Positions 7,476-63,858 of a stretch of 64,000 bases of DNA are shown piece by piece. The notes below the pieces were generated by a model. It was given only the letters and a program-made list of their open reading frames with translations. It was not told the origin of the DNA and did no database searches. The translations under genes and the position numbers were made by a program. The stretch is from an uncultured Spirochaetia bacterium (lineage in GTDB: Bacteria; Spirochaetota; Spirochaetia; CAKZLE01): NCBI GenBank assembly GCA_937125225.1, contig CAKZLE010000020.1:62001-126000 (forward strand), given 5' to 3'. The number at the start of each line of letters is the position of its first letter. Within the stretch, counting starts at the first letter, position 1.

Positions 7476-7499
7476 GAGTAGCTGCTTCTGGGGGTCTTT
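7461..7499. terminator. Possible terminator between convergent genes
   Basis: GCAGCTAC (7461-7468) and GTAGCTGC (7478-7485) form an 8-bp stem overlapping the end of the fusion gene, followed by a short CTTTTA stretch. The T-run is short, so termination efficiency is uncertain. Confidence 0.45.
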
Positions 7500-8497
7500 T
7501 ATTGGGAGATATCTTTCCCATCTTTGACAATGACTGCTGCCTGATCGAGGATCGAATCAGCTATCGTGATCCCAAGCTGCGCAGCTACATCGAGATTCAC
7601 TCTCAATTCGATGTCACTTGGATCTGTCATGAATCCTACCGGTATCGTTGATGGGTCGGCCCCCTCAAGAACCTCTGCTGCCATGAGAGCAGTAGCCTTC
7701 CCGAGTTTGTAATAGTCGAAGCCCCAAGCGAGCATGACATCTGTTCCGACTGCGGAGGTCGTATCAGCACTCATGATCGGTACACCTGCCTGCATAGCGA
7801 CATCGGCAAGGGATGGTAGGGCTGATACGACGGTATTGTCATTAGAGACATAGAATCCATCCACCCTAGAGGCTATCGCTTGAGCTGCCTGTTTTACCTC
7901 TGAACTATTTGTGACTGCTGATGGTACGAACTCTATTCCGAGCTCCTTACAGACTTTCTCAGCCATTTCGGCAAGGAGTACTGCATTGGCTTCCCCACTC
8001 GTATAGACATGTCCGAGCCTCTTGATATTGGTGACTTCGGCAAGAAGTCTGATCTGAGCCTCTACAGGAGTCAGGTCTGAAACCCCGGTTACATTACCTA
8101 TCCCATGATCATAGTTCTCGACAAGCCCAGCCTCGATTGGTTCTGTGACTGCAGAGAAGAGTACCGGTGAGTCGCTGATAATATTTGCTAGTGCCTGTGC
8201 GGTGGGAGTTGCGATCCCTATCGCTAAGTCTACCTTATCGGCCTTGAACTTCTGGGCGATCGATGTCGCTGTGGTGATATCACCATTAGCGTTCTGTAGA
8301 TCGAATACGATATCTTCATATCCTAACTCTGCTAGACCATCGATGATCCCCTGTTCGATCGCATCTAAAGCAGGATGCTGGATGATCTTTGAAATACCTA
8401 TGGAAACCGTAGTCTCCTCTTTACTACAACCGATGGAAGCAAAGACTATAGCCACTGAGACTAATATGATCATTACTGACTTGAATATGGAACTCAT
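7499..8497 (-). CDS. ABC substrate-binding lipoprotein, TrpX family (ABC_sub_bind)
   Basis: The 332-residue lipoprotein has a signal peptide ending in the lipobox SIGC (Cys24) and belongs to the YtmK/TrpX group (PF04392 type). Recognisable stretches are GISKIIQHPALDAIEQGI near the N-terminus and FSAVTEPIEAGLV in the middle. In this family TrpX proteins bind tryptophan or other aromatic compounds. The matching permease and ATPase are not adjacent, so it works with a remote transporter or as a sensor. The start follows AGAGG with 7 nt spacing. A striking twin inverted-repeat operator lies 21-81 bases upstream. Confidence 0.85.
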   Translation of the reverse strand: MSSIFKSVMIILVSVAIVFASIGCSKEETTVSIGISKIIQHPALDAIEQGIIDGLAELGYEDIVFDLQNANGDITTATSIAQKFKADKVDLAIGIATPTAQALANIISDSPVLFSAVTEPIEAGLVENYDHGIGNVTGVSDLTPVEAQIRLLAEVTNIKRLGHVYTSGEANAVLLAEMAEKVCKELGIEFVPSAVTNSSEVKQAAQAIASRVDGFYVSNDNTVVSALPSLADVAMQAGVPIMSADTTSAVGTDVMLAWGFDYYKLGKATALMAAEVLEGADPSTIPVGFMTDPSDIELRVNLDVAAQLGITIADSILDQAAVIVKDGKDISQ

Positions 8498-8616: not shown

Positions 8617-8644
8617 TTGAGGGAAAAATTTCTTGTGCTATAAT
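8617..8644 (+). promoter_or_regulatory. Promoter of the two-component operon
   Basis: TTGAGG (8617-8622), 16-bp spacer and a consensus TATAAT (8639-8644) lie 48 bases before the kinase start. Confidence 0.6.
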
Positions 8645-8691: not shown

Positions 8692-9939
8692 TTGCAGTTC
8701 AGGAAATTCTATAATATCTATTTTGAGAAACTCCTTTTCTACCATGACATCATATTACATGCCGTGATCAGTATAGTCTGTTATACCGCTGCACTTATCA
8801 TCTATCATCAGATCAAGAGTACTCATCCGTTTCTGGTACTATTCGAGAAGCAGGTCTATTTTGTAATTGCTGCATCACTTCTCCTCTCTATCCTCTGGTT
8901 CATCTTCAGAAAGACTAAAATCGCTATCCTAGCATTTCTTCTGAAATTCATTTTTCTTATCGTCGTTGGGTATCCTTTTGGAGGAGATCTCTATTTCGAA
9001 CTCTGTCTTACGATCCCGTTCATCTTCGATTGTCTTATATTCTTAGAGGAACCTCTTTCCTGTATCGTTGTCTTTTTCATCGCAGCAGTTGAAATGCTCT
9101 TTCAACGGGAATTCATCGCCTGGGGTAGAGTGGTAGAGGCTCCTGAGGTTATAGATCATATCTTCTTTGGTGTGATACTGATCCTAACGAGTATAACAAC
9201 CTTTTCCTGGAGACACAGCTCCTTTGCCTATAACACCTGCATCACTCAGATCGAGAAGCTCGATTCTATTGTGGTACATCTCTCATCTGTGAACAAGGAC
9301 TTCCAGCAGTATGCTGTCGAGGCTCGAGAAGATGCTCAGATGCTTGAACGTAAGAGGATTTCACGTGATATCCACGATACCGTAGGATATACCCTCACAA
9401 ACCTGATCATGATGATGGAGGCTGCAACAGACTTCTCGAAGACAGATCCCGACAAGACTCGAGAATTACTGCAGAAGGCACGAGAGCAGGCATCACTCGG
9501 TCTTGAAGATACGAGGAAGTCTCTTCGAGCCCTGCGTCATATAGGTGATACGAAGAAATCCTGTATCGCAGCGGTCAATGAGCTAGTAAAGACCTTCCAG
9601 AAGGCTACAGGGGTCGAGACTACTGTAGAGTTCGGGAATATCCCCTGGAGTTTCAATCCTCTCTATGACAGCATCATGTACAGCATCATCCAGGAGGGAC
9701 TGGTAAACTCTTTCAGGCATGGGCATGCTACAAGGATTACGATTAAGTTCTGGCAGGATCTGGATTCAATAAAACTTGCAGTCAATGATAATGGCAAGGG
9801 GAGTGAGAGTATCGTTCAGGGTATAGGTCTGGCCGGGATGAAAGAGCGTCTGAAACTCGTTGATGGCACCCTGTCGGCAGGTAACAGTCAGATGGGCTTT
9901 GATCTTCGTGTCACTCTACCAAATATATTTGAAGGATAA
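8692..9939 (+). CDS. Membrane sensor histidine kinase, NarL-type (HisKA_3)
   Basis: The N-terminal half has about six membrane helices (roughly residues 23-173) with little extracytoplasmic domain. It is followed by a coiled linker, a HisKA_3 phosphoacceptor site RISRDIHDTVGY (His228) and an HATPase domain with VNDNGKG and GIGLAGMKERL. The kinase is expected to phosphorylate the regulator that starts 4 bases downstream. The start is TTG at 8692, the only sensible start in frame; a purine-rich AAAGGGTGGG lies slightly far upstream, so translation may be weak. The signal is unknown, but the next operon is a sugar importer, which suggests carbohydrate sensing in the membrane. Confidence 0.88.
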   Translation: MQFRKFYNIYFEKLLFYHDIILHAVISIVCYTAALIIYHQIKSTHPFLVLFEKQVYFVIAASLLLSILWFIFRKTKIAILAFLLKFIFLIVVGYPFGGDLYFELCLTIPFIFDCLIFLEEPLSCIVVFFIAAVEMLFQREFIAWGRVVEAPEVIDHIFFGVILILTSITTFSWRHSSFAYNTCITQIEKLDSIVVHLSSVNKDFQQYAVEAREDAQMLERKRISRDIHDTVGYTLTNLIMMMEAATDFSKTDPDKTRELLQKAREQASLGLEDTRKSLRALRHIGDTKKSCIAAVNELVKTFQKATGVETTVEFGNIPWSFNPLYDSIMYSIIQEGLVNSFRHGHATRITIKFWQDLDSIKLAVNDNGKGSESIVQGIGLAGMKERLKLVDGTLSAGNSQMGFDLRVTLPNIFEG

Positions 9940-9942
9940 AAG

Positions 9943-10623
9943 ATGGAAAACGTTATAAAGATACTTCTAGTCGATGATCAAATACTTTTTGTACAGAGTC
10001 TTCGGGATGTTCTTCAGATGAGATCAGAGGAGATAGAGGTAGTAGGGATAGCTACGAACGGTATCGAGGCCCTTTCATTCCTCGAGGAGCATGAGGTCGA
10101 TATCGTCCTTATGGATGTTCGCATGCCGGTGATGGATGGGGTTAAAGCGTGTGCAGAGGTCCACTGCCTGTATCCTGATGTTCAGGTAGTGATGCTCACT
10201 ACTTTCGATGATGATGAATATGTCTTTGAGGCATTGAATAAGGGGGCTGTCGGTTATCTGTTGAAGAATATTCCCCCTGAGGAGTTGATCAGGGCGATCG
10301 TAGCAGTGAAAAATAAGATCTATCAGCTATCTCCCTCTGTGATGCAGAAACTCATACATAATAAAGTTCCCAGTATATCTGAAGAGCGGGTCAAAGAACC
10401 TGAGCCGAATGAGAACTCAAAGGTCTTCGAGGATCTGAGTTCTCGAGAGAAGGATATCCTGAGACTGCTCGTTGCCGGAAAGAATAACAGGGAGATAGCT
10501 TCACAGCTCTTCATTGCCCAGCAGACCGTTAAGAACCACCTCTGTATCATATATGATAAACTCATGGTTAGAGACAGGATTCAGGCTATAAGGAAGATAG
10601 AACCCTTCTTCGGGGAGAAGTGA
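9943..10623 (+). CDS. NarL/LuxR-type response regulator
   Basis: The 226-residue protein has a receiver domain with acidic pair D11-D12, phosphoacceptor Asp58 in VLMDVRMP, Thr86 and Lys108. It ends in a LuxR-type helix-turn-helix (LSSREKDILRLLVAGKNNREIA). It is translated from the ATG 4 bases after the kinase stop, preceded by AAGGA. The palindromes just downstream, around the promoter of the importer operon, are natural candidates for its binding sites. Confidence 0.93.
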   Translation: MENVIKILLVDDQILFVQSLRDVLQMRSEEIEVVGIATNGIEALSFLEEHEVDIVLMDVRMPVMDGVKACAEVHCLYPDVQVVMLTTFDDDEYVFEALNKGAVGYLLKNIPPEELIRAIVAVKNKIYQLSPSVMQKLIHNKVPSISEERVKEPEPNENSKVFEDLSSREKDILRLLVAGKNNREIASQLFIAQQTVKNHLCIIYDKLMVRDRIQAIRKIEPFFGEK

Positions 10624-10626
10624 TGC

Positions 10627-10704
10627 AGGTACTATAGTACCTCTTGCCGAACAGGAGTATATAACTCTATATATAAAAATAAATAAAATAAAAGTACTAT
10701 AGTA
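10627..10704 (+). promoter_or_regulatory. Promoter flanked by two matching palindromic operators
   Basis: A 16-bp perfect palindrome AGGTACTATAGTACCT (10627-10642) and a second copy with the same TACTATAGTA core (10695-10704) flank a candidate promoter, TTGCCG (10644-10649) and TATATA (10668-10673). The cores are 65 bp apart, about six helical turns. The arrangement suits one dimeric regulator bound on both sides of the promoter of the CUT1 operon. Confidence 0.7.
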
Positions 10705-10764
10705 ACTTCCGAAAGTGTGGTGCAGGTCTTAGCATGTATATAAACAAAAAAGGAGGCACTCTAT

Positions 10765-12048
10765 ATGAAAAGAATGCTAAGTATTTTACTGTTATTGACA
10801 ATGGTCGTAACCAGCCTGTTCGCTGGTGGAGCACAGGAAGAGGCTGCAGATAAGACAGTCACTCTGAACCTAATGGCTGATAATAGAAGTGAATTGGTCA
10901 AGATGCAGGAACTTCTGCCGGCTTTTGAAGCTGAGACCGGTATCAAAGTCAATTGGATGCAGTTACAGGAGACCCCTCTGCGATCGAAGACAGGTCTGGA
11001 GCTTTCTGCTCCATCAACAGACATCGATGTGATCATGGTCGACTTCCTCTTCATGAATAAATATGCCAAAGCAGGCTATCTAGCACCTCTTGATTCATAT
11101 TTTGCTGATAGCAAGACCTATGATGAATCAGATTTCCAGGCACCATTCATTGATGCAGTCAGTTATGATGGAAATATGTATGCAGTCCCACTCTATCAGG
11201 ATTGTAACATCCTCGTGTATAGAGCTGACCTCTATGCTAAATATGAACTGAACGTACCCAAGACCTTTGATGAATTGATGTACAACGCTAAGGTCATCTC
11301 TGAGAATGAACCAAATATGGCAGGTATCACTCTGAGAGGACAGAGAGGAATGGGTGTGAATGAATGGACATGGCCAACCTTCCTTAGAGGCTTTGGTGGA
11401 ACATATTTTGATGAGAATATGATGGGTAATCTTGATACCCCAGAGGCGATCGCCTCATTGGATTATTATGCTGAGATCCTAAACAACTATGGACCTGAAG
11501 GGGTCGCGAACTTCTCATATATCGAAGTTCAGAATGGTGTCGCTCAGGGAACAGCTGCGATGTTCATAGACTCAGCAAGTCTTGCCCCACGTTGTGAAGA
11601 CCCAGGATACTCAAAAGTAGCTGGTAAACTCGGATATGCTGTCGTCCCCGGTAAGGTCGAGACACAACCTGGATTCTACTCATGGACTCTCGTAGTACCT
11701 GAGAAATCAAAGAAAAAAGAGGCTGCAGCGACATTCCTGGAATGGATAATCAGTCCTGAGATCGCTAGTCAATTAGGTTGGTCAGCTCCGAATCAGGCAC
11801 TCGAAAGTGTTTATGATATCCCCGCCTATGCAGGATATGATCAGTCAGAACCTCTTGTCAAGGTTATGAAAGACTCCCTTGCGTTAGCTGATCCAGATTA
11901 CAGACCTCGAGTCGATCAGGCTGCAGAGGTAGGTACAAGAGTATCAATTGCAATATCTGAAGTATTGGCTGGAGAGAAGAGTGCTGAAGAGGCTCTTAAA
12001 GAGGCTGATGCAGATATCGATCAGATCATGAAAGATGCAGGTTATTAA
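10765..12048 (+). CDS. CUT1 sugar ABC importer, substrate-binding protein
   Basis: The 427-residue extracellular solute-binding protein family 1 member has a signal peptide ending LFAGGAQEE, without a lipobox cysteine, as is common in spirochaetes. The start has AAGGAGG about 9 nt upstream. It captures a carbohydrate outside the membrane for the two permeases that follow. An intercistronic hairpin separates it from the permease genes and probably allows higher expression of this subunit. The sugar is not predictable, but the downstream FGGY kinase suggests a monosaccharide, polyol or sugar derivative. Confidence 0.9.
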   Translation: MKRMLSILLLLTMVVTSLFAGGAQEEAADKTVTLNLMADNRSELVKMQELLPAFEAETGIKVNWMQLQETPLRSKTGLELSAPSTDIDVIMVDFLFMNKYAKAGYLAPLDSYFADSKTYDESDFQAPFIDAVSYDGNMYAVPLYQDCNILVYRADLYAKYELNVPKTFDELMYNAKVISENEPNMAGITLRGQRGMGVNEWTWPTFLRGFGGTYFDENMMGNLDTPEAIASLDYYAEILNNYGPEGVANFSYIEVQNGVAQGTAAMFIDSASLAPRCEDPGYSKVAGKLGYAVVPGKVETQPGFYSWTLVVPEKSKKKEAAATFLEWIISPEIASQLGWSAPNQALESVYDIPAYAGYDQSEPLVKVMKDSLALADPDYRPRVDQAAEVGTRVSIAISEVLAGEKSAEEALKEADADIDQIMKDAGY

Positions 12049-12064
12049 TAGATAGCTTTGTTAG

Positions 12065-12098
12065 ATTGAGATATCTGGCGACTGCCGGATATCTCAAT
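12065..12098 (+). other. Intercistronic hairpin
   Basis: ATTGAGATATC and GATATCTCAAT form an 11-bp stem with a further GGC/GCC pairing inside the loop, 17 bases after the binding-protein stop. No T-run follows, so it probably stabilises or partly terminates the upstream mRNA rather than ending the operon. Confidence 0.7.
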
Positions 12099-12133
12099 AT
12101 GTAAGAATTTGGAAACATTTTAGGAATATACTT

Positions 12134-13024
12134 ATGAAGCTACAACTAAAGCTGAAAGATAAGCATTACCTGATGCTTTTTCTCTTACCAGCGATAATCT
12201 GTCTGGCGGTACTCTCTGTGTACCCACTGCTTTTTAGCTTAAAGAACAGTTTTTTCAATTGGGACCTGATCAAACCCGGTTCACAAGAGAATTTTATCGG
12301 ATTCAAGAATTATATAGCCATCCTAAAAGACGATGCCTTCTGGGTCGCTCTATGGATCACTCTGAAATATACTTTCTTCAGTGTTTCTGCAGCGCTTGTA
12401 TTTGGTATGGCTATGGCATTCCTCTTCTTCAGGAATCTCTTCGGAACTTGGGTCGTCAGAACTATCGTGATCGCTGCCATGGTTATCTCTCCGGTAATCG
12501 TAGGTACCCTGTGGAGACTTATGTACAGTCCTGATTATGGATTGGTGAACTATATCATCGGATTAGTCGGTATACCCCCACAATCCTTCCTGGCCAACAC
12601 CAATAGCGTTCTGGCTTCTCTGATCCTAGTTGATGTATGGGAATTCGCACCTCTTATCATGGTCATCATCCTTGCTGCTCTGCAGGGACTTCCCTCAGCA
12701 ATCTATGAGGCAGGTCTGATAGATGGCTGTAATAAGATGCAGCTCTTTCTCCATATCACACTTCCCCTGTTAAAACCCTCCATACTCCTCTCACTACTGA
12801 TCAGGACTATGGACTGTTTCAGGACCTTTGACTCTATCTATGCCATGACCGGTGGTGGTCCGGGAACCTCAAGCCAGAATCTGAACATCCTGATGTTCAA
12901 TACCGGGTTTGAGTTCTTCCAGATATCCAAAGTCACAGCAATGGCTGTATTAAGTCTTGTAGTCATCACTATCATCTGTCTTCTGATGGTAAAGTCACTG
13001 AGAAAGGATTCATCACTATGGTAA
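12134..13024 (+). CDS. CUT1 sugar ABC importer, permease 1 (MalF/UgpA-like)
   Basis: This 296-residue inner-membrane protein has six predicted helices and the conserved EAGLIDGCNKMQLFLHITLPLL region (the EAA loop, residues about 195-215), which docks to the ATPase. It lies 85 bases after the binding protein, with TAGGAA 7 nt before the start, and overlaps the second permease by 7 bases. No ATPase gene is in the operon, so a shared MsiK/UgpC-type ATPase elsewhere is expected. Confidence 0.92.
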   Translation: MKLQLKLKDKHYLMLFLLPAIICLAVLSVYPLLFSLKNSFFNWDLIKPGSQENFIGFKNYIAILKDDAFWVALWITLKYTFFSVSAALVFGMAMAFLFFRNLFGTWVVRTIVIAAMVISPVIVGTLWRLMYSPDYGLVNYIIGLVGIPPQSFLANTNSVLASLILVDVWEFAPLIMVIILAALQGLPSAIYEAGLIDGCNKMQLFLHITLPLLKPSILLSLLIRTMDCFRTFDSIYAMTGGGPGTSSQNLNILMFNTGFEFFQISKVTAMAVLSLVVITIICLLMVKSLRKDSSLW

Positions 13025-13848
13025 AGAGAGAAAAAGCATTCACCACAACACTATTATACCTAGCTTTGATATTCGTCTTTCTATTCTATGCCTTCCCGAT
13101 CTTCTGGATGGTAACTAGCTCTATGAAAATCGAATCAGAGGCTCTGCAGATGCCTCCAAGTATCATCTTCCAACCGACTCTTGAGAATTATGAGGATGCC
13201 TTCATCAATAGAGGACTGATGACTAATTTCAAGAACTCTCTGTTCATATCTATTGTCAGCAGCATCCTTGCATTGGTGATTGGTACCCCGGCTGCATATG
13301 CTATGTCCCGGTTCGAGTTCAAAGGTAAAGATGATCTGTTCTTCTGGTTCCTCTCTACGAGAATGGCTCCTCCTATACTCGCTGCCATCCCTATGTTCAT
13401 CCTTGCCAGGAATATCGGTATCTATGATACCCTTGGGCTGTTGACGGTCATGAACATGTTGATGAACCTCTCCTGGGTGGTCTGGATGATGCGCTCCTTC
13501 TTCGATGAGATAAGCAAACAGATAGATGAATCATGTATGGTTGACGGCTGTACAAGACTGACTGCTCTTTTGAAGGTGATCATTCCGATGTCCAGTCCAG
13601 GTCTTATAGCTACTGTGATATTCTGTCTGGTCATGTCATGGAATGAGTATTTCTTCGCACTGGTACTTACCAGTGTCAATGCAAAGACTCTCCCTGCTGC
13701 GATCAATTCCTTCCTGACTGTCCATGGTCTGCTCTGGGGCGAGATGTGTGCTGTTGGTACTATTGTAATGATCCCGATCTTGGTCTTCGTCTTCTTTACT
13801 CAGAGGAATTTGATTCGAGGACTTACGATGGGAGCTGTCAAAGGATAA
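13018..13848 (+). CDS. CUT1 sugar ABC importer, permease 2 (MalG/UgpE-like)
   Basis: This 276-residue six-helix permease carries the EAA-loop motif ESCMVDGCTRLTALLKVIIP (residues about 169-188). The C-terminus GLTMGAVKG is typical of MalG-type subunits. It overlaps the preceding permease by 7 bases and is followed 4 bases later by the FGGY kinase, so all are co-transcribed. Confidence 0.92.
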   Translation: MVKREKAFTTTLLYLALIFVFLFYAFPIFWMVTSSMKIESEALQMPPSIIFQPTLENYEDAFINRGLMTNFKNSLFISIVSSILALVIGTPAAYAMSRFEFKGKDDLFFWFLSTRMAPPILAAIPMFILARNIGIYDTLGLLTVMNMLMNLSWVVWMMRSFFDEISKQIDESCMVDGCTRLTALLKVIIPMSSPGLIATVIFCLVMSWNEYFFALVLTSVNAKTLPAAINSFLTVHGLLWGEMCAVGTIVMIPILVFVFFTQRNLIRGLTMGAVKG

Positions 13849-13852
13849 CCAT

Positions 13853-15367
13853 ATGCAGGAATATCTACTTGCTTTTGATGTGGGAACCACAAGCTGTAAA
13901 GCATGTCTGTTTGATACGGAACTCAAGCTTATCGCTTCAGCCGTATCAGGCTATGAGACTGCCCATCCCTACCCCGGGTGGGCAGAACATCAATGCAGCG
14001 ATTGGTTAGATGCTATCATCAGAAATATGAAGGAATTGCTTGATGTGTCTCAGATAGACCCGAAAGCTGTCATAGCTATCGGTCTAGATACCCTCGGCAG
14101 TACCCTCGTCCCAGTTGATGGAGAGGGGAATGCATTAGGCTCAGGTCTGATCTGGATGGATCGACGGAGTTCCCGTGAATGTAGTATGATCGACAGCATC
14201 ATCGGTGATGATCTGTTGAGGATCAATGGGAACCATAATGATCCCTCCAATATTGCCCCCAAGATCCTCTGGATGAAGGCTAATAAACCTGAGATTTATA
14301 AGAGAACAAGTTCCTTTCTCCATGCAAATGGTTATATCGCCCAGTTCCTGACAGGTCTCCCCTCAATGGATATCACAGAGGGGGGGCTTACTCAGCTCTT
14401 TGATATTCAGAGAGGATGCTGGTCGAGAGAGCTGACTTCAGATTGCGGGATCGATCAAGAGAAACTTCCTGAGATCGTTCCCTGCCACAGGCCGCTGGGG
14501 AGATTGACCTCCAGAGCTGCAAAGTTATTGGGGCTGCCTTCAGGTATTCCCGTGATGCCTGGTGCCATGGATATGGTATCTGCTGCTCTCGGTTCCGGGG
14601 TAGTATCTGAAGGTGATACCTATGTCTCTGCCGGTACAGTCACTGCTGTCGGTGTATGCAGGAAGACACCTATCCCTCACAAGGATCTCCATCTCTATCA
14701 TCACATCATACCTGATACCTGGATCTCTGCAGCCGGAGTAGATTACGGTGGGGCTGGTTTTCGCTGGTTCCAAAAACTGCTGGAGATACGTTCATTTGGT
14801 GAGATAGACAGGATGATATCAGAGGCAGATAGGGGTAGTGAGCCACTGATCTTTCTACCTTATATGGTAGGGCAAAGAGCACCTCTCTGGAATTCTCAGA
14901 CTCGGGGAGTCCTACTGGGACTGCATCCCTCAACGACAGAGGTAGAACTTTTCAGGGCCTTCATGGAGGGGAATGCTCTTGGAGTCAGGAGGATCCTTGA
15001 TATCATAGGATCGACAGGAGTCACTCCAGGTATGATGAAACTCACAGGAGGCTGTTCGAACAGTGAACCTTGGATCAGGATCTTCGCTGATGTTTCCAGC
15101 CTTCCCATAACCATTCCCGGTGAGATGGATGTTGCCAGTCTCGGAGGGGCCATCTCGGCTGCTATAGGAGTTGGTCTCTATCCAGATTTCTCATCCTTAC
15201 CGGATCTCACGAGGGATCTTGAAGTGTTAGAACCTGATCGCTCGGCAGTTGATCTCTATCATGAGTATTTCAGGGTGTTCAACCGGGCTCTTGATCAGAT
15301 GATGCCTGTCTATCAGGAGCTGGAAGATGTCAGGACTCTATTACAGGAGAAGAGGGAGAACCCATGA
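13853..15367 (+). CDS. FGGY-family carbohydrate kinase
   Basis: The 504-residue kinase has the N-terminal phosphate-binding motif AFDVGTTSCKACLFD (residues 6-20) and the C-terminal FGGY signature region TGGCSNSEPWIRIFADV followed by LGGAISAAIG. It resembles xylulokinase-like members in layout. It presumably phosphorylates the sugar or polyol delivered by the importer just upstream. The specificity cannot be set from sequence alone. It overlaps the UroD-like gene by 4 bases. Confidence 0.9.
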   Translation: MQEYLLAFDVGTTSCKACLFDTELKLIASAVSGYETAHPYPGWAEHQCSDWLDAIIRNMKELLDVSQIDPKAVIAIGLDTLGSTLVPVDGEGNALGSGLIWMDRRSSRECSMIDSIIGDDLLRINGNHNDPSNIAPKILWMKANKPEIYKRTSSFLHANGYIAQFLTGLPSMDITEGGLTQLFDIQRGCWSRELTSDCGIDQEKLPEIVPCHRPLGRLTSRAAKLLGLPSGIPVMPGAMDMVSAALGSGVVSEGDTYVSAGTVTAVGVCRKTPIPHKDLHLYHHIIPDTWISAAGVDYGGAGFRWFQKLLEIRSFGEIDRMISEADRGSEPLIFLPYMVGQRAPLWNSQTRGVLLGLHPSTTEVELFRAFMEGNALGVRRILDIIGSTGVTPGMMKLTGGCSNSEPWIRIFADVSSLPITIPGEMDVASLGGAISAAIGVGLYPDFSSLPDLTRDLEVLEPDRSAVDLYHEYFRVFNRALDQMMPVYQELEDVRTLLQEKRENP

Positions 15368-16503
15368 ACTCTCGAGAACGGGTGATTCATGCGATCAATC
15401 ATGAACATGTCGATAGGATCCCAATCTACTGGGGAGGGACCTCCTCATGGATGACAGATAGAGCCTATATGAATCTTGTAGATCATCTGGGGTTGGACGG
15501 TTATGGTAGGCCGTACCGTACCGGACACACTGGGAACTATATTGATAACAGGATATTGGAACTCTTCAACGTCGATGTGCGTATGCTGCAGATGCAGATA
15601 TCAATTGATGAGAAGAGGATAGATAATAACACGATAGTCTCAGATTGGGGAATCCTATTGAGAACGGTCGATGGATATGGCATTCGAATTGATCCTCCCT
15701 TTGCCTCTCTGGATATAGAGAGAGCGCTTTTGAATGGTAGCCTCTCAGAGCTTATCGATGCACATAGTTGGCCGGATCCCTTTGATGCACGTAGGACTCT
15801 TGGTCTGGAAGAGGATCTGATATATCATCAGGAACGTTCAGATGCGGCTCTCGTTGCACGGTCCCCGCAATCTGCATCGTTCATAGAATATGGCTGCTGG
15901 CTTCGAGGGGATGCTCAGTTCTATATGGATCTCTACCTCTATCCTGAATTCATAAATATGCTTCTTGATAAGATCCTTGAGATCCAGAAGGGATTTTATA
16001 CTTCCTTCCTTCAGGTGGTGGGAGGTTCTGTGGATATCGTAGAGACCTCTGAAGATTATGGGACTCAGGATGGTCTCCTGATCTCTCCTGAGCAGTTGAG
16101 AGAATATATCTTCCCTAGACGAAAGGAATTGAATCGACACATACGCGATTTGGCTCCCGATATAAAGATCATGCACCACTCCTGTGGTGCTGTAACTCCT
16201 ATCATAGGAGATCTGTATCAAACTGGTGTTGATATACTCAATCCGATACAGCCTATAGCAGATCTTATGGATCATAGTATGCTCAAAGAGAGCTATGGAG
16301 ATAAGATGGTGTTCTGCGGTGGATTGGATATGATAGGGGCCATGACAAGATCAGAAGAGTCGATAGAACAGGAGATCAGAAAGAGGGTGGATATATTCGG
16401 CCATGATGGCGGTTACCTCATATCAACCTCGAACCATCTGCAGCGTGATACTTCACCAGAACAGATAGTCTATGTATTTGAGAGATTAAAAGAGTTAGTT
16501 TGA
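15364..16503 (+). CDS. UroD/MtaA-superfamily protein 1, not heme HemE
   Basis: This 379-residue TIM-barrel protein of the uroporphyrinogen decarboxylase superfamily begins NSRERVIHAINHEHVDRIP, a common N-terminus in methyltransferase-like members. The MRQAGRY motif of true HemE is absent. A His-x-Cys pair (H272, C274 in HHSCG) corresponds to zinc ligands of MtaA/MtbA methyltransferases, but the third cysteine expected about 76 residues later is missing (STSNHLQ there), although a Cys occurs at 318. The ATG overlaps the kinase stop. It is paired with a paralogue 16 bases downstream. The context points to metabolism of the imported carbohydrate; the reaction is unknown. Confidence 0.8.
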   Translation: MNSRERVIHAINHEHVDRIPIYWGGTSSWMTDRAYMNLVDHLGLDGYGRPYRTGHTGNYIDNRILELFNVDVRMLQMQISIDEKRIDNNTIVSDWGILLRTVDGYGIRIDPPFASLDIERALLNGSLSELIDAHSWPDPFDARRTLGLEEDLIYHQERSDAALVARSPQSASFIEYGCWLRGDAQFYMDLYLYPEFINMLLDKILEIQKGFYTSFLQVVGGSVDIVETSEDYGTQDGLLISPEQLREYIFPRRKELNRHIRDLAPDIKIMHHSCGAVTPIIGDLYQTGVDILNPIQPIADLMDHSMLKESYGDKMVFCGGLDMIGAMTRSEESIEQEIRKRVDIFGHDGGYLISTSNHLQRDTSPEQIVYVFERLKELV

Positions 16504-16519
16504 ACAAGGAGAGCAGATC

Positions 16520-17665
16520 ATGACATCAAGAGAACGAGTATTGAGAGCATTGTCTCATAAAGAGCCGGATAGAGTACCCATAGACATTGGTGGAAAAGCA
16601 TGTAATATGACGAGTAAGACACTTTTCAGGATAAAGGATCATTTCGGCATCACCTCGGATGATATCTGGAACAGACCTTTTGAATCTGCGGCCTTCTACA
16701 ATGATGAGGTCGTTGAGAGGCTAGGAAGTGATTTTCGTCATATATTCCTCATGCCCTCAGATCTTGAGACTCTTCAGAAGGGAGATGACGGGATCATCAG
16801 ACTCTCGGAAGATGGGACGATATCAAATGAATGGGGATTCCAGTATAAGTTCATCGACGGGATGTCTACTATCGTGAATGCACCTCTCGCTGAGGCTGAG
16901 ATCTCAGATATCGCAACATATCCATGGCCCGACCCAAAGGCTCCCGGCAGGACTGCAGGGTTGGTAGAGCGGGCAAGACACCTCTTTGAGGAGACAGATT
17001 ATGCAGTAGAGGCCAGAGCTGTCTCACATGGTTTCTTCGAACTCTCCCATGAGTTGAGAGGGTTTGAGAATTTTCTGATGGATCTCTATATCAATAAGGA
17101 CTTCGCACATACTCTGCTCGATAAGATGCTGGAGATCCAGATGGAGATGTACTCAGTCCTATTGCAGAATACCGGCAAGTATGTACATGTTGTGCAGACA
17201 GCTGATGATTATGGGATGCAGACTGGATTGCTGATGTCTCCTGAGATCTGGAGAGAATTCATGAAACCAAGAAGGAAGGCACTCAATGAACATATACAAT
17301 CTCTAGCACCTCAGGCAAAGATCTTTCATCATACCTGTGGTTCGGTATATCCGATAATCCCCGACTTCATTGAGATTGGTATAGATATCCTCAACCCCGT
17401 TCAGCCACTGGCTACAGATATGGACCCCGGAAAGTTGAAGGCTGAATTCGGTGATGAGATATGCTTTCATGGTGCGATCGACCAACAGGAGGCACTTCCC
17501 GGGACAGTTGAAAAACTTGATGAGGAGATTCAGCTAAGAATGCAGCAGTTGAAACCCGGTGGAGGTTATATTGTGGCTCCTACCAGTAATATTCAAGACG
17601 ATGTTCCCCTAGAGAATATTCTTTTTTACTATGATGCGATCAAACGTTATGGACAATATGAATAA
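16520..17665 (+). CDS. UroD/MtaA-superfamily protein 2, paralogue of the upstream gene
   Basis: The 381-residue protein shares its start (TSRERVLRALSHKEPDRVP), its HHTCG motif (H271, C273) and the overall pattern ILNPVQPLATDMDP with the preceding protein, so they arose by duplication and diverged. Again the HemE MRQAGRY motif is missing and the late cysteine ligand is replaced by APTSNIQDD. A heterodimer or two sequential steps are possible. The start is preceded by AAGGAGAG. Confidence 0.8.
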   Translation: MTSRERVLRALSHKEPDRVPIDIGGKACNMTSKTLFRIKDHFGITSDDIWNRPFESAAFYNDEVVERLGSDFRHIFLMPSDLETLQKGDDGIIRLSEDGTISNEWGFQYKFIDGMSTIVNAPLAEAEISDIATYPWPDPKAPGRTAGLVERARHLFEETDYAVEARAVSHGFFELSHELRGFENFLMDLYINKDFAHTLLDKMLEIQMEMYSVLLQNTGKYVHVVQTADDYGMQTGLLMSPEIWREFMKPRRKALNEHIQSLAPQAKIFHHTCGSVYPIIPDFIEIGIDILNPVQPLATDMDPGKLKAEFGDEICFHGAIDQQEALPGTVEKLDEEIQLRMQQLKPGGGYIVAPTSNIQDDVPLENILFYYDAIKRYGQYE

Positions 17666-17710
17666 ATTCAGTATGATTACCCCAAGAGATCTCTATCGAG
17701 GTAGGTATTC

Positions 17711-18337
17711 ATGCTCAAGGAACATCAGAAGGCAACTATCAAGGCATATGACAACTCAGCAAAGAAATTCAACAATACCATAGCCCAATATGATAACTAC
17801 GATGAGACCTATGATTATCTTGTCGATCACTTGAACAGTGGTGATTCAGTGTTAGATCTTGCCTGTGGACCGGGGAATATCAGTGGTTATCTCGCTGAAA
17901 GAAGAGATCTGAATGTCACAGGGTATGATCTATCTCAGAAGATGCTAGAGCTTGCTAGAGAGCGAATACCTCACGGGATGTTCAAAGAACAGTCGATAAT
18001 CGACTTCACCGTAGAGGACCCAGTCGATCTTGTGATCAATGGCTTTGGTTTTCCCTATCTTCATGATCAACAGATAGATCTTTCCCTAGCATCCTCTTAT
18101 CGGGCACTCAAGAGCCCAGGGCTTCTCTATATCAGTTTCATGGATGGGGACAAAGAGGGATTCGAGACCACCTCATTTCATACTGCTGATGAATTCTACC
18201 TTCTCCACCATGATAAACAGCATATCAGATCGAAGCTCGAGAGTATCGGATTCACTCTGAAAAGAGAGTGGACTCTAGGGTATGAGGAAGCTGATGGATC
18301 GATCACGGATGATATCATTATCATTGCAGAGAAATAA
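17711..18337 (+). CDS. Class I SAM-dependent methyltransferase
   Basis: The 208-residue protein has the SAM-binding motif I VLDLACGPGNISGYL (residues about 47-61) and a Rossmann-like fold (Methyltransf_11/25 type). It starts 46 bases after the second UroD-like gene behind GAGGTAGG, and is probably the last gene of the importer-kinase operon. The substrate is unknown. Its presence beside methyltransferase-like UroD proteins suggests a methylation or methyl-transfer theme, but this is inference. Confidence 0.85.
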   Translation: MLKEHQKATIKAYDNSAKKFNNTIAQYDNYDETYDYLVDHLNSGDSVLDLACGPGNISGYLAERRDLNVTGYDLSQKMLELARERIPHGMFKEQSIIDFTVEDPVDLVINGFGFPYLHDQQIDLSLASSYRALKSPGLLYISFMDGDKEGFETTSFHTADEFYLLHHDKQHIRSKLESIGFTLKREWTLGYEEADGSITDDIIIIAEK

Positions 18338-60874: not shown

Positions 60875-62794
60875 GTGAAAAAAATCCATAATTATTTTAC
60901 GCTATTTCTCATTAGCTTCATGCTTCTCTGTCTCTTTATTATCGTGAACATGTTCTACCAAGGGCAGAGCAATCGGGTAAACTCCCTTGCGATGGAGTCT
61001 GTGGAGGTGCTTGCTGAATGGAATGACCTTGGAAACAGGAACTATGGGTTACTTGTTGATAGATTCACACAGTATGGCGACACCCCCGCTGAGGCCTTCA
61101 CAGAATGGGAAGAGGCCTTCCTCTCATTCGAGAAGGATCTTGATCAGTTCATCGGAAACCCCTCATTCAGTCGTCAACCGGAGATGCAAAGACGACTTGA
61201 TGGTGCTTATCGAGTCTGGAGATACACACGTGTCAGATTGAACACGGCGAATGAATACCTCACTGAGATCATTGAATCAGGACTTGGGGAGACGGTCTTC
61301 GTCAATGGGATGCTTCATACGATGTACCAGTTGAGAATGGAAGATCAACTATCTATCGAGGAGTTGCTTCTCCTAGAGGATGCCATCAATGCATTGGATA
61401 ATCTTGAGAAGGCCTCGGATGATTTTGATCTCCTGTTCAAGGTCATTATCGAAGATATGAAGGCTGATGGTCAACGCTATCTACAGAGGATGAGATTGCT
61501 GATCATTGCAATCTTTTCTGCAGCGGCCCTAGTACTCTTCCTCTCATACTACCTGCAACGATCAGTGAGTAGGAATCAGGAATCTAGAAGTGCTATCAAT
61601 CGGGAGAGAAGAAAGACTCTGTATAGGAATCTTCTTGAGAATAGTACTCAGGAGACGATTCAAGCTATCATTTCAGAGAAAGAGGAGATCTCAATTCCCC
61701 TTGAGCCAAAGGATCCCATTCTGTTGGTTCTTCTTCAGATCGATGATTTCAGGAAGTTCTCTCATGCGTTCAATATTGCAGAGCAGCAAGAGCTGATCAG
61801 TAATCTCTGTTCACGTTTTCTCGCATTTCTGAATATCCGAGAATGTCGAGCTGATCATCTCGAATATCATGATGATATGGTGGTATTCTTGATCAATGGA
61901 GAGACTGAAGAGGCTCTAGATGCCTTGAATCGAGAACTCATGGAGTGGTCCTCGATGAATTTCTGGGACCAGGAGTTCTCTTGCTCGATGACCATCGGAG
62001 AGGTCTATCTGGAACCCGAAGATATCGATCAGGAGTTCAGTGATCTCCTGAAGTTCTCTGAGTATCGTTATACCATGGGCAAACAGGCCCTGATTAAGAT
62101 CGAAGAGATTAAATCTCTCATACATGACCAGGAGTTCAAGTATCCGCAAGAGAAGGAACGCCAATTCTTGGAGGCCTGCAAAGCCCTTGATATCGCAGCA
62201 GTGAAGCGTATCAGTCATGAGATGCTCTCTTATGGGAGAGAGTTTGGTCCAGAATGTGCAAAACGGTTAGTCTTACGACTCTCTGCTGCTCAGAGCAATG
62301 TCATAGAGCAACTGATACGCAGTTTCAATATAGAACGCGAGGCTTCGGGGTCGACTACCAGGATCCTAGAGATTCAGGGGAGGGAGACTCTTGTAGAGGC
62401 TGAAGAGCTACTCTGTTCTGTGATAGAGAATATTATCGAGGTCTGTGATGACAAGCGTCATAACAAACAGGATCAGGTGATCATCAAGATCAAAGAGTTG
62501 ATCAAAGAGAACCTCACCGATTTCAACCTGTCTGCAGATATGATCGGAGATGAGTTCAAGCTCTCTGCATCCTATATCAATAGGGTATTCAAGCAGCAGA
62601 CTTCGATGAGTATTGCCGGATTCATCAATGACCAACGACTCGTTCGAGCTGATGAGTTGATCCTTGAAGGACATATTACCATCGCGGATGCAGCTGCAGC
62701 TGCTGGTTTTGCCAGTACAGGGACCTTCTTCCGTCTCTATAAGAAGAGATTCGGTCAGACTCCCGGAGAACGAGTCTCCGGAATCTTCTCCTAG
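60875..62794 (+). CDS. Membrane-anchored AraC-type regulator with degenerate GGDEF-like domain
   Basis: The 639-residue protein has a membrane helix at residues 8-28, an extracytoplasmic mostly helical domain to about 205, a second helix (about 207-227), a cytoplasmic GGDEF-like domain lacking the catalytic motif (LLVLLQIDDFRKFSHAFN region, about 285-420), and a C-terminal AraC helix-turn-helix pair (DFNLSADMIGDEFKLSASYI and FASTGTFFRLYKKRFGQTPG, about 545-639). It regulates without a phosphorelay, most likely the divergent importer operon. Start is GTG at 60875. The last 4 bases overlap the convergent UroD-like gene. Confidence 0.87.
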   Translation: MKKIHNYFTLFLISFMLLCLFIIVNMFYQGQSNRVNSLAMESVEVLAEWNDLGNRNYGLLVDRFTQYGDTPAEAFTEWEEAFLSFEKDLDQFIGNPSFSRQPEMQRRLDGAYRVWRYTRVRLNTANEYLTEIIESGLGETVFVNGMLHTMYQLRMEDQLSIEELLLLEDAINALDNLEKASDDFDLLFKVIIEDMKADGQRYLQRMRLLIIAIFSAAALVLFLSYYLQRSVSRNQESRSAINRERRKTLYRNLLENSTQETIQAIISEKEEISIPLEPKDPILLVLLQIDDFRKFSHAFNIAEQQELISNLCSRFLAFLNIRECRADHLEYHDDMVVFLINGETEEALDALNRELMEWSSMNFWDQEFSCSMTIGEVYLEPEDIDQEFSDLLKFSEYRYTMGKQALIKIEEIKSLIHDQEFKYPQEKERQFLEACKALDIAAVKRISHEMLSYGREFGPECAKRLVLRLSAAQSNVIEQLIRSFNIEREASGSTTRILEIQGRETLVEAEELLCSVIENIIEVCDDKRHNKQDQVIIKIKELIKENLTDFNLSADMIGDEFKLSASYINRVFKQQTSMSIAGFINDQRLVRADELILEGHITIADAAAAAGFASTGTFFRLYKKRFGQTPGERVSGIFS

Positions 62795-63858
62795 GAATAG
62801 TAGCTCTCAACCTCCCTTTCAAGTCTCTCAGCCTGCTTGAGTGTATCAATGAAGACCATGAGATACATTCCCTGTGGTCCTACAGCATCAAGTAAGGGAA
62901 CGACTTCCTCAGGTCTTATCCAGACAGCCTGTACACTTTTCCCTGCCTTTTTGATCTTCTGATACATCTCATACCAGTAAGGGTCTCCTCCCGGTGGAAT
63001 CTGTGGCCCCGGGGTGAATTCTAAAGCTGTGAGTGATTCGATCTCGAGTAAGGGGTCTATCGATCTTATCGCATCAGGGCCATCGACATGGTAGATGGAG
63101 TAATCTAGGTAATCACACTGTTCTCTGAGGTAGGGAACGACGAAATCATTGAACATCTGTGTCCCGATCATCGCTGCAGTATCGCAATGGGTGAGAGCGA
63201 TCTTTCCCGGCCCTCTGACCATGAAGTATCCTTGGGATGTCCACCCTTTCTCATCAATAAGAAGGGGTTGGAACTCCTCATAGACTTCGAAGAAGACTTG
63301 GTTGAGTTCCTTAAGCTTCTCATGTACCCATCCAGGATCAAGGATCATGTCCATCAAAAGATCCTGTACTCCCCGGAGTTCAGCAAGAACATCAAGGTTT
63401 GGAACTAAGGCAGGGAGTCCCACTTGATACCTTCCTCCTGAGATCTGCATCATCTTCTTATAGATCTCCATATGGCTTCTGAACCATCTGTTGTCCTTAT
63501 CGAAGCATAAAGGATAGTCATTCTCCGGAGAGAGGTCACTATGGTCGTACCAGATATTCGAAGATGTGAATGTTGGTTTAGCTCCCAAGTATAGAGCCAA
63601 GGGGAGGGTGTTGATATCAGGGATGGCTATCGATTGGATATCGAGAGGGAAACTCTTTGCCATGATACGATCATGTTCTCTTCTTACCACCGTATTCGGG
63701 TCTGAATAGTATCTCTCAAGATTCACCCCTTCAGGTGCCTCTTTCCCGAAATCATCGATAAGGCCGGTACCCCAGTGACCGATGACCATGTCAGTACCTT
63801 GCCACCATCCTAGCATATGTCTATCAGATATCACAGTGTTTTTCTTGATCAGATTCAT
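62791..63858 (-). CDS. UroD/MtaA-superfamily protein 3, lacking the His-x-Cys pair
   Basis: The 355-residue TIM-barrel protein is a distant UroD-like member. At the place of HHSCG in the others it has YHVDGPDA (His257, Asp259), with no cysteine, and true HemE motifs are absent. It lies beside the CUT1-GH31 operon and its AraC regulator, which it faces tail-to-tail. Its promoter must lie to the right; 142 bases to the window end hold no recognisable element. The reaction is unknown. Confidence 0.75.
   Translation of the reverse strand: MNLIKKNTVISDRHMLGWWQGTDMVIGHWGTGLIDDFGKEAPEGVNLERYYSDPNTVVRREHDRIMAKSFPLDIQSIAIPDINTLPLALYLGAKPTFTSSNIWYDHSDLSPENDYPLCFDKDNRWFRSHMEIYKKMMQISGGRYQVGLPALVPNLDVLAELRGVQDLLMDMILDPGWVHEKLKELNQVFFEVYEEFQPLLIDEKGWTSQGYFMVRGPGKIALTHCDTAAMIGTQMFNDFVVPYLREQCDYLDYSIYHVDGPDAIRSIDPLLEIESLTALEFTPGPQIPPGGDPYWYEMYQKIKKAGKSVQAVWIRPEEVVPLLDAVGPQGMYLMVFIDTLKQAERLEREVESYYS

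Follow-up and report, generated by a model that had tools for sequence, protein, structure and literature searches.

Gene content and conserved core of the locus

We analysed a 64,000-nucleotide window from the genome of an uncultured Spirochaetia bacterium (assembly GCA_937125225.1, contig CAKZLE010000020.1, positions 62,001 to 126,000). Within it lies a nine-gene cluster in which two paralogous genes of the uroporphyrinogen decarboxylase (UroD) superfamily, UroD1 and UroD2, follow a carbohydrate importer and an FGGY kinase (Table 1). The host genome is 3.43 Mb in size and 97% complete. Coordinates and domain matches confirmed the nine plus-strand open reading frames (ORFs), with the order and domains given in the initial annotation, and we likewise found no corrinoid or heme gene within the cluster. 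The overlaps described for most junctions were an error. The spacings across the eight junctions are, in gene order, 3, 141, 85, -7, 4, -4, 16 and 45 nt, therefore overlap is limited to two of them, MalF/MalG and FGGY/UroD1. Promoter-like sites show no excess over chance expectation, and the site ahead of the histidine kinase gene is a consensus match only.

Table 1. Features of the UroD cluster (positions in the window)
Feature	Position	Strand	Evidence	Conserved core
Promoter-like site TTGAGG-16-TATAAT, extended -10 TG, ahead of histidine kinase	8617..8644	+	consensus match	
Sensor histidine kinase, HisKA_3 type	8692..9939	+	PF07730 60 bits, PF02518 27 bits	
NarL/LuxR-type (NarL/GerE) response regulator	9943..10623	+	PF00072 96 bits, PF00196 65 bits	
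CUT1 solute-binding lipoprotein (SBP)	10765..12048	+	PF01547 (SBP_bac_1) 158 bits	core
CUT1 permease 1, MalF-like	12134..13024	+	PF00528 (BPD_transp_1)	core
CUT1 permease 2, MalG-like	13018..13848	+	PF00528 (BPD_transp_1)	core
FGGY carbohydrate kinase	13853..15367	+	PF00370 (FGGY_N) 174.5 bits, PF02782 (FGGY_C) 87 bits	core
UroD1, proposed corrinoid-dependent methyltransferase (MT1)	15364..16503	+	PF01208 69 bits	core
UroD2, UroD1 paralogue, proposed second MT1	16520..17665	+	PF01208 100 bits	core
Class I S-adenosylmethionine (SAM)-dependent methyltransferase	17711..18337	+	PF13649 (Methyltransf_25) 58 bits	

Most of this gene order recurs in the genome of an unrelated gut Clostridia bacterium (locus L092, contig CAJTFD010000005.1), where a DeoR-type regulator is followed by SBP, MalF, MalG, UroD1, UroD2 and FGGY. 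Identity between the two loci is 59% for the SBP, 46% for UroD1 and 57% for UroD2. The permease orthologues score 300 bits (MalF-like) and 332 bits (MalG-like), and in the tree UroD1 and UroD2 each group with their own L092 orthologue (support 0.998). From this synteny and orthologue pairing it follows that the core consists of the importer, the FGGY kinase and the UroD pair, which form a genuine conserved module. The functional tie of the UroD pair to the importer and kinase, already suggested in the initial annotation, is thus borne out. We also looked for neighbourhoods that split the UroD genes from the importer, and the L092 synteny favours the link.

The initial annotation also counted the two-component pair and the SAM methyltransferase into the system, which the comparison did not support. 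The histidine kinase and the NarL-type regulator are flanking genes and are not conserved with the core, since L092 lacks this two-component pair and has the DeoR-type regulator in its place. The methyltransferase is also absent from L092, and no homologue was found in any neighbour locus retrieved. It is possibly co-transcribed with the module, to which its link is unproven. Its best NCBIfam match is CpaM (NF043040, corrinoid protein-associated methyltransferase) with 49.8 bits, below the cut-off of 180.

An orthologous operon was not found among 393 genomes of the phylum. The exact operon seems to be rare, since a search with the SBP through some 790 clostridial genomes (about 390 Clostridia and 397 family-level) matched the genome of L092 only. 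A pair of UroDs with an FGGY kinase occurs at two other loci: one (L125) has the order UroD, FGGY, UroD and L-ribulose-5-phosphate 3-epimerase, and in the other (L072) a Rbs-type importer is followed by two UroDs, with an unassigned protein between them, and by FGGY. An FGGY gene stands beside UroD at 4 of 13 loci in the window's subclade and at 1 of 80 loci in the remaining clade (p=0.001), whereas over the whole clade there is no FGGY enrichment (5/459 near vs 5/387 far).

With its importer and FGGY kinase, the cluster resembles the FGGY-kinase CUT1 operons of the xylulose, sorbitol and ascorbate types, but it carries the UroD pair instead of an isomerase, dehydrogenase or aldolase, none of which is encoded in the operon. 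The operon also has no gene for an importer ATPase; CUT1 systems that share one ATPase usually come without an ATPase gene of their own. The kinase belongs to the FGGY family and is nearest to xylulokinase, its best NCBIfam match being XylB with 300.9 bits, under the equivalog cut-off of 380.25. The SBP has its nearest solved structure in 4rya, named a sorbitol-binding protein. We rejected naming the ligand from this match, as the related plasmid operons are too varied.

Fold and metal site of the UroD pair

UroD1 and UroD2 share 39% identity, and both belong to PF01208, well above its gathering score of 23.9. The AlphaFold model of UroD2 (predicted local distance difference test score, pLDDT, 92.9) shows the TIM-barrel fold of UroD. 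Its best PDB match is the coenzyme M methyltransferase MtaA (4ay7), followed by true UroD structures, and the matches to 4ay7 and to many UroD structures have a probability of 1.0. MtaA is also the nearest solved homologue by sequence profile. The pair shares with MtaA and the other soluble coenzyme M methyltransferases the H-x-C-G metal motif (H272-S-C274-G in UroD1), which retains two of the three MtaA zinc ligands. The third, a cysteine, is replaced by N, H or S, and the His and the Cys/Asp are retained. The invariant residues of our alignment A1 include D230, H271, G274 and D321 of UroD2. The His-Cys-Cys signature of the zinc S-methyltransferases MtaA and Mlp is therefore missing from both proteins; identity to MtaA is about 18%, and the scores of 40.1 and 73.0 bits lie far below the 235.4-bit cut-off of TIGR01463 (MtaA/CmuA). 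Identity to E. coli HemE is 19%, and the N-terminal RQAGR motif present in that enzyme is absent from both paralogues. We therefore count UroD1 and UroD2 neither among the heme enzymes nor among the near relatives of MtaA.

According to a study of mlp clusters, His-Cys-Cys marks S-methyltransferases and substituted ligands mark O-methyl chemistry (PMC10418091). Because of this, an MtaA-like fold with a substituted third cysteine favours methyl chemistry on an O- rather than an S-methyl substrate. The loss of the ligand is compatible with methyl transfer, since superfamily methyltransferases without zinc have been reported in work on chloromethane (PMC13222342).

The wider UroD clade and its corrinoid link

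A single-sequence scan of the genome collection with UroD1 returned nothing, and an alignment-based scan returned 80 loci. Genes were called by a simple longest-ORF method, so that gene counts are approximate. The window's own genome has 21 PF01208 matches, the three best of which sit with corrinoid proteins. Most of the others adjoin sugar ATP-binding cassette (ABC) importers, tripartite tricarboxylate transporters (TTT), sulfatases or glycosidases. UroD-like genes occur in sugar operons at about ten loci of this genome and are not confined to the one described here. A transporter lies within five genes of 10 of the 11 scorable UroD-like genes. PF01208 matches number 48 in Robinsoniella peoriensis and 40 in a digester Clostridiaceae genome. 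Sugar importers are enriched beside the clade in relatives (45/459 near vs 13/387 far, p=0.00013). Tripartite ATP-independent periplasmic (TRAP) and TTT transporters, dehydrogenases and sulfatases show no significant enrichment in relatives, though they are present at several loci of the window's genome.

At three of those loci (L060, L065 and L067) the UroD-like genes have sulfatases, two of which Pfam confirmed, and transporters for sugars or tricarboxylates as neighbours, which suggests use of sulfated and perhaps methylated glycans. In a Moorella acetogen (L178, G398:C6:33001-46000) two UroD-like genes accompany a CUT1 importer, a PIG-L-like deacetylase, a PfkB kinase and a NagB-like gene. 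The window itself holds a further divergent UroD-like ORF (62791-63858, minus strand, 355 aa), which adjoins another CUT1 importer at 56-59 kb; its product is below Pfam detection and matches the clade hidden Markov model weakly.

The initial annotation implied that the missing corrinoid gene counts against corrinoid chemistry. We found no support for this, since the same genome encodes corrinoid proteins at other sites, and in other genomes they are encoded beside UroD relatives. Outside the cluster, three stand-alone corrinoid proteins are encoded in the window's genome, along with two (RACo-type) corrinoid activases. A corrinoid protein gene is the next gene on the same strand for 6 of 76 clade UroDs from public genomes, and at distances of up to three genes from the clade members corrinoid genes are in excess (10/459 vs 1/387, p=0.012). 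A corrinoid activase is encoded by each of the nine spirochaete genomes that have close UroD homologues vs 79 of 384 others (21%; p=1e-6); in total, 88 of the 393 phylum genomes have one.

The most telling arrangements are two operons that apparently hold a whole pathway in cis, the first of them being the clearest. In Desulfosporosinus (L143, CAKMJS010000032.1, 3758-13516) the order is RbsC, RbsA, RbsB, UroD, corrinoid protein and xylulokinase, the last scoring over the XylB cut-off, with a xylose-isomerase-like gene upstream. This is apparently a complete operon of the O-methyl-xylose type and would be a strong experimental model. In Desulfofustis (L137) a fucose-isomerase-like gene, UroD, an aldolase, a corrinoid protein and a methyl-tetrahydrofolate (methyl-THF):corrinoid methyltransferase lie together. 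Judged by gene content, UroD is the sole candidate for the substrate-side methyltransferase (MT1) in both. A third locus (L164) combines an importer, two UroDs, a fucose-isomerase-like protein, a class II aldolase, FGGY, a third UroD and a corrinoid protein.

Another corrinoid operon (L056, G000:C20:346001-366000) comprises a BMP-like ABC importer, an activase, a homologue of the MtmB-family methylamine methyltransferases and a corrinoid protein, along with DUF1638, xanthine-dehydrogenase-like subunits and a UroD. The corrinoid-linked UroDs at this locus and at L055 retain two Cys ligands and could be acceptor enzymes.

Proposed function and alternatives

The best reading of these data, which we favour tentatively and with a little less than even confidence, is that an imported O-methyl sugar or polyol is O-demethylated in a corrinoid-dependent reaction, with the corrinoid protein acting in trans. 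It builds on what we could show: the genes themselves and the conservation of their linkage, the UroD fold with its partial metal motif, and the relatives beside corrinoid protein, isomerase and xylulokinase genes. The importer would take up an O-methylated monosaccharide or polyol (or sugar acid). UroD1 and UroD2 would be MT1 enzymes of the O-demethylase kind, which remove the methyl group independently of oxygen. The His-x-Cys-Gly metal site would polarise the ether oxygen, the methyl group would pass to Co(I) on a corrinoid protein that is encoded separately, and the FGGY kinase would phosphorylate the sugar for central metabolism. The two paralogues may serve two positions or two related substrates; tandem O-demethylase paralogues are known from MtoB1/MtoB2 (PMC8630106). 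We infer that UroD1 and UroD2 use a corrinoid protein in trans, to which class the substrate belongs, and in which order demethylation and phosphorylation take place. Of the three chemistries originally put forward, methyl removal is favoured by the comparative evidence over decarboxylation and a C-C step.

Known UroD-superfamily methyltransferases offer partial parallels. The O-demethylases and dehalogenases MtvB, OdmB, VdmB, MtoB and CdmB belong to the same superfamily and have the MT1 role that we propose here, but the window pair falls in a separate clade and is about 18% identical to a presumed O-demethylase encoded next to a corrinoid protein in Moorella (L181). Those enzymes stand in an aromatic or halomethane context, whereas the context here is carbohydrate, with no corrinoid protein in cis. 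Type 1 mlp clusters (PMC10418091) likewise hold several UroD-superfamily paralogues per cluster, in anaerobes, but they encode a corrinoid protein and an activase and keep His-Cys-Cys, while the window cluster lacks both of these genes as well as the third Cys.

Several observations weigh against corrinoid-dependent demethylation. A corrinoid gene in cis is absent across the window's 16-member subclade, therefore the corrinoid link rests on sister branches. UroD-like genes outnumber corrinoid proteins 40 to 1 in one genome (G396) and 48 to 7 in another (G395). MetH is the only PF00809 methyltransferase in the window's genome, and thus the usual THF acceptor enzyme (MT2) is missing; a UroD-type MT2 is possible as the acceptor methyltransferase there. 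The nine genomes behind the activase association are not independent, five of them coming from one family, so that shared ancestry confounds it. Finally, a more distant UroD from the same taxonomic family (L089, G001:C30:7001-26579) lies in the arrangement UlaG-UlaD-UlaE-UlaF-FGGY-CUT1 importer-UroD, where UlaG (642 bits) and UlaD (324 bits) are over their equivalog cut-offs. This is, by its gene content, an ascorbate or (3-)keto-gulonate operon with an unexplained UroD, and a methyl ether would not be an evident substrate there.

Because of the absent cis corrinoid gene, the missing PF00809 MT2, the excess of UroD genes and the L089 operon, we keep open, as unlikely yet still appreciable, that the sugar-operon UroDs work without a corrinoid and use the metal barrel as a lyase, decarboxylase, dehydratase or isomerase before or after phosphorylation. 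Such a role would suit the association with acid-sugar pathways, and the superfamily includes a true decarboxylase, HemE. It is, however, harder to reconcile with the enrichment of corrinoid genes beside the same clade, including operons with UroD as the only possible MT1, with the activase co-occurrence and with the distance of both paralogues from HemE.

We consider it improbable that UroD1 or UroD2 is an acceptor-side MT2, passing the methyl group from methyl-corrinoid to a thiol or folate as MtaA does, so that the pair would consist of an MT1 and an MT2. The nearest solved homologue is itself an MT2, the genome is without a PF00809-type MT2, and UroD1 and UroD2 are distinct orthologous lines. 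Against this, both proteins have another residue in place of the third zinc-ligand Cys that thiol chemistry requires, their MtaA/CmuA scores are low, and a separate PF00809 MT2 stands beside UroD in the Desulfofustis operon. That the two are housekeeping heme enzymes, as the Pfam family name has it, or chance bystanders of the importer is scarcely credible given the gene order kept in another phylum, the 21 PF01208 matches in one genome and the low identity to a HemE whose RQAGR motif they lack.

Corrinoid-dependent demethylation may extend beyond this operon. It is possible, although we hold this more doubtfully than the proposal for the operon itself, that the widespread undescribed clade is the general anaerobic demethylation route for O-methyl sugars, sugar acids and polyols. 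Its enzymes would then work with sugar importers and kinases and share a single corrinoid protein or a few of them, and the window operon would be a member with two such enzymes. Plant cell walls, algal polysaccharides and bacterial glycans commonly contain O-methyl sugars and cyclitols. In the open-access papers that we searched, a set without most subscription journals, we found neither a prior description of UroD with sugars, kinases or methylated sugars nor an anaerobic demethylating enzyme for O-methyl sugars or cyclitols. The family as a whole is of more interest than this one operon. Gut, sediment and digester bacteria carry up to tens of such UroD-like genes in a genome, annotated misleadingly as heme enzymes. 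The Desulfosporosinus and Desulfofustis operons make a function of this large unannotated family directly testable, with consequences for one-carbon flow, acetogenesis and glycan breakdown.

Upstream of the cluster and divergent from it, a gene on the minus strand (7499-8497) encodes a TrpX-like ABC substrate-binding protein, which scores 267 bits, under the cut-off of 390.

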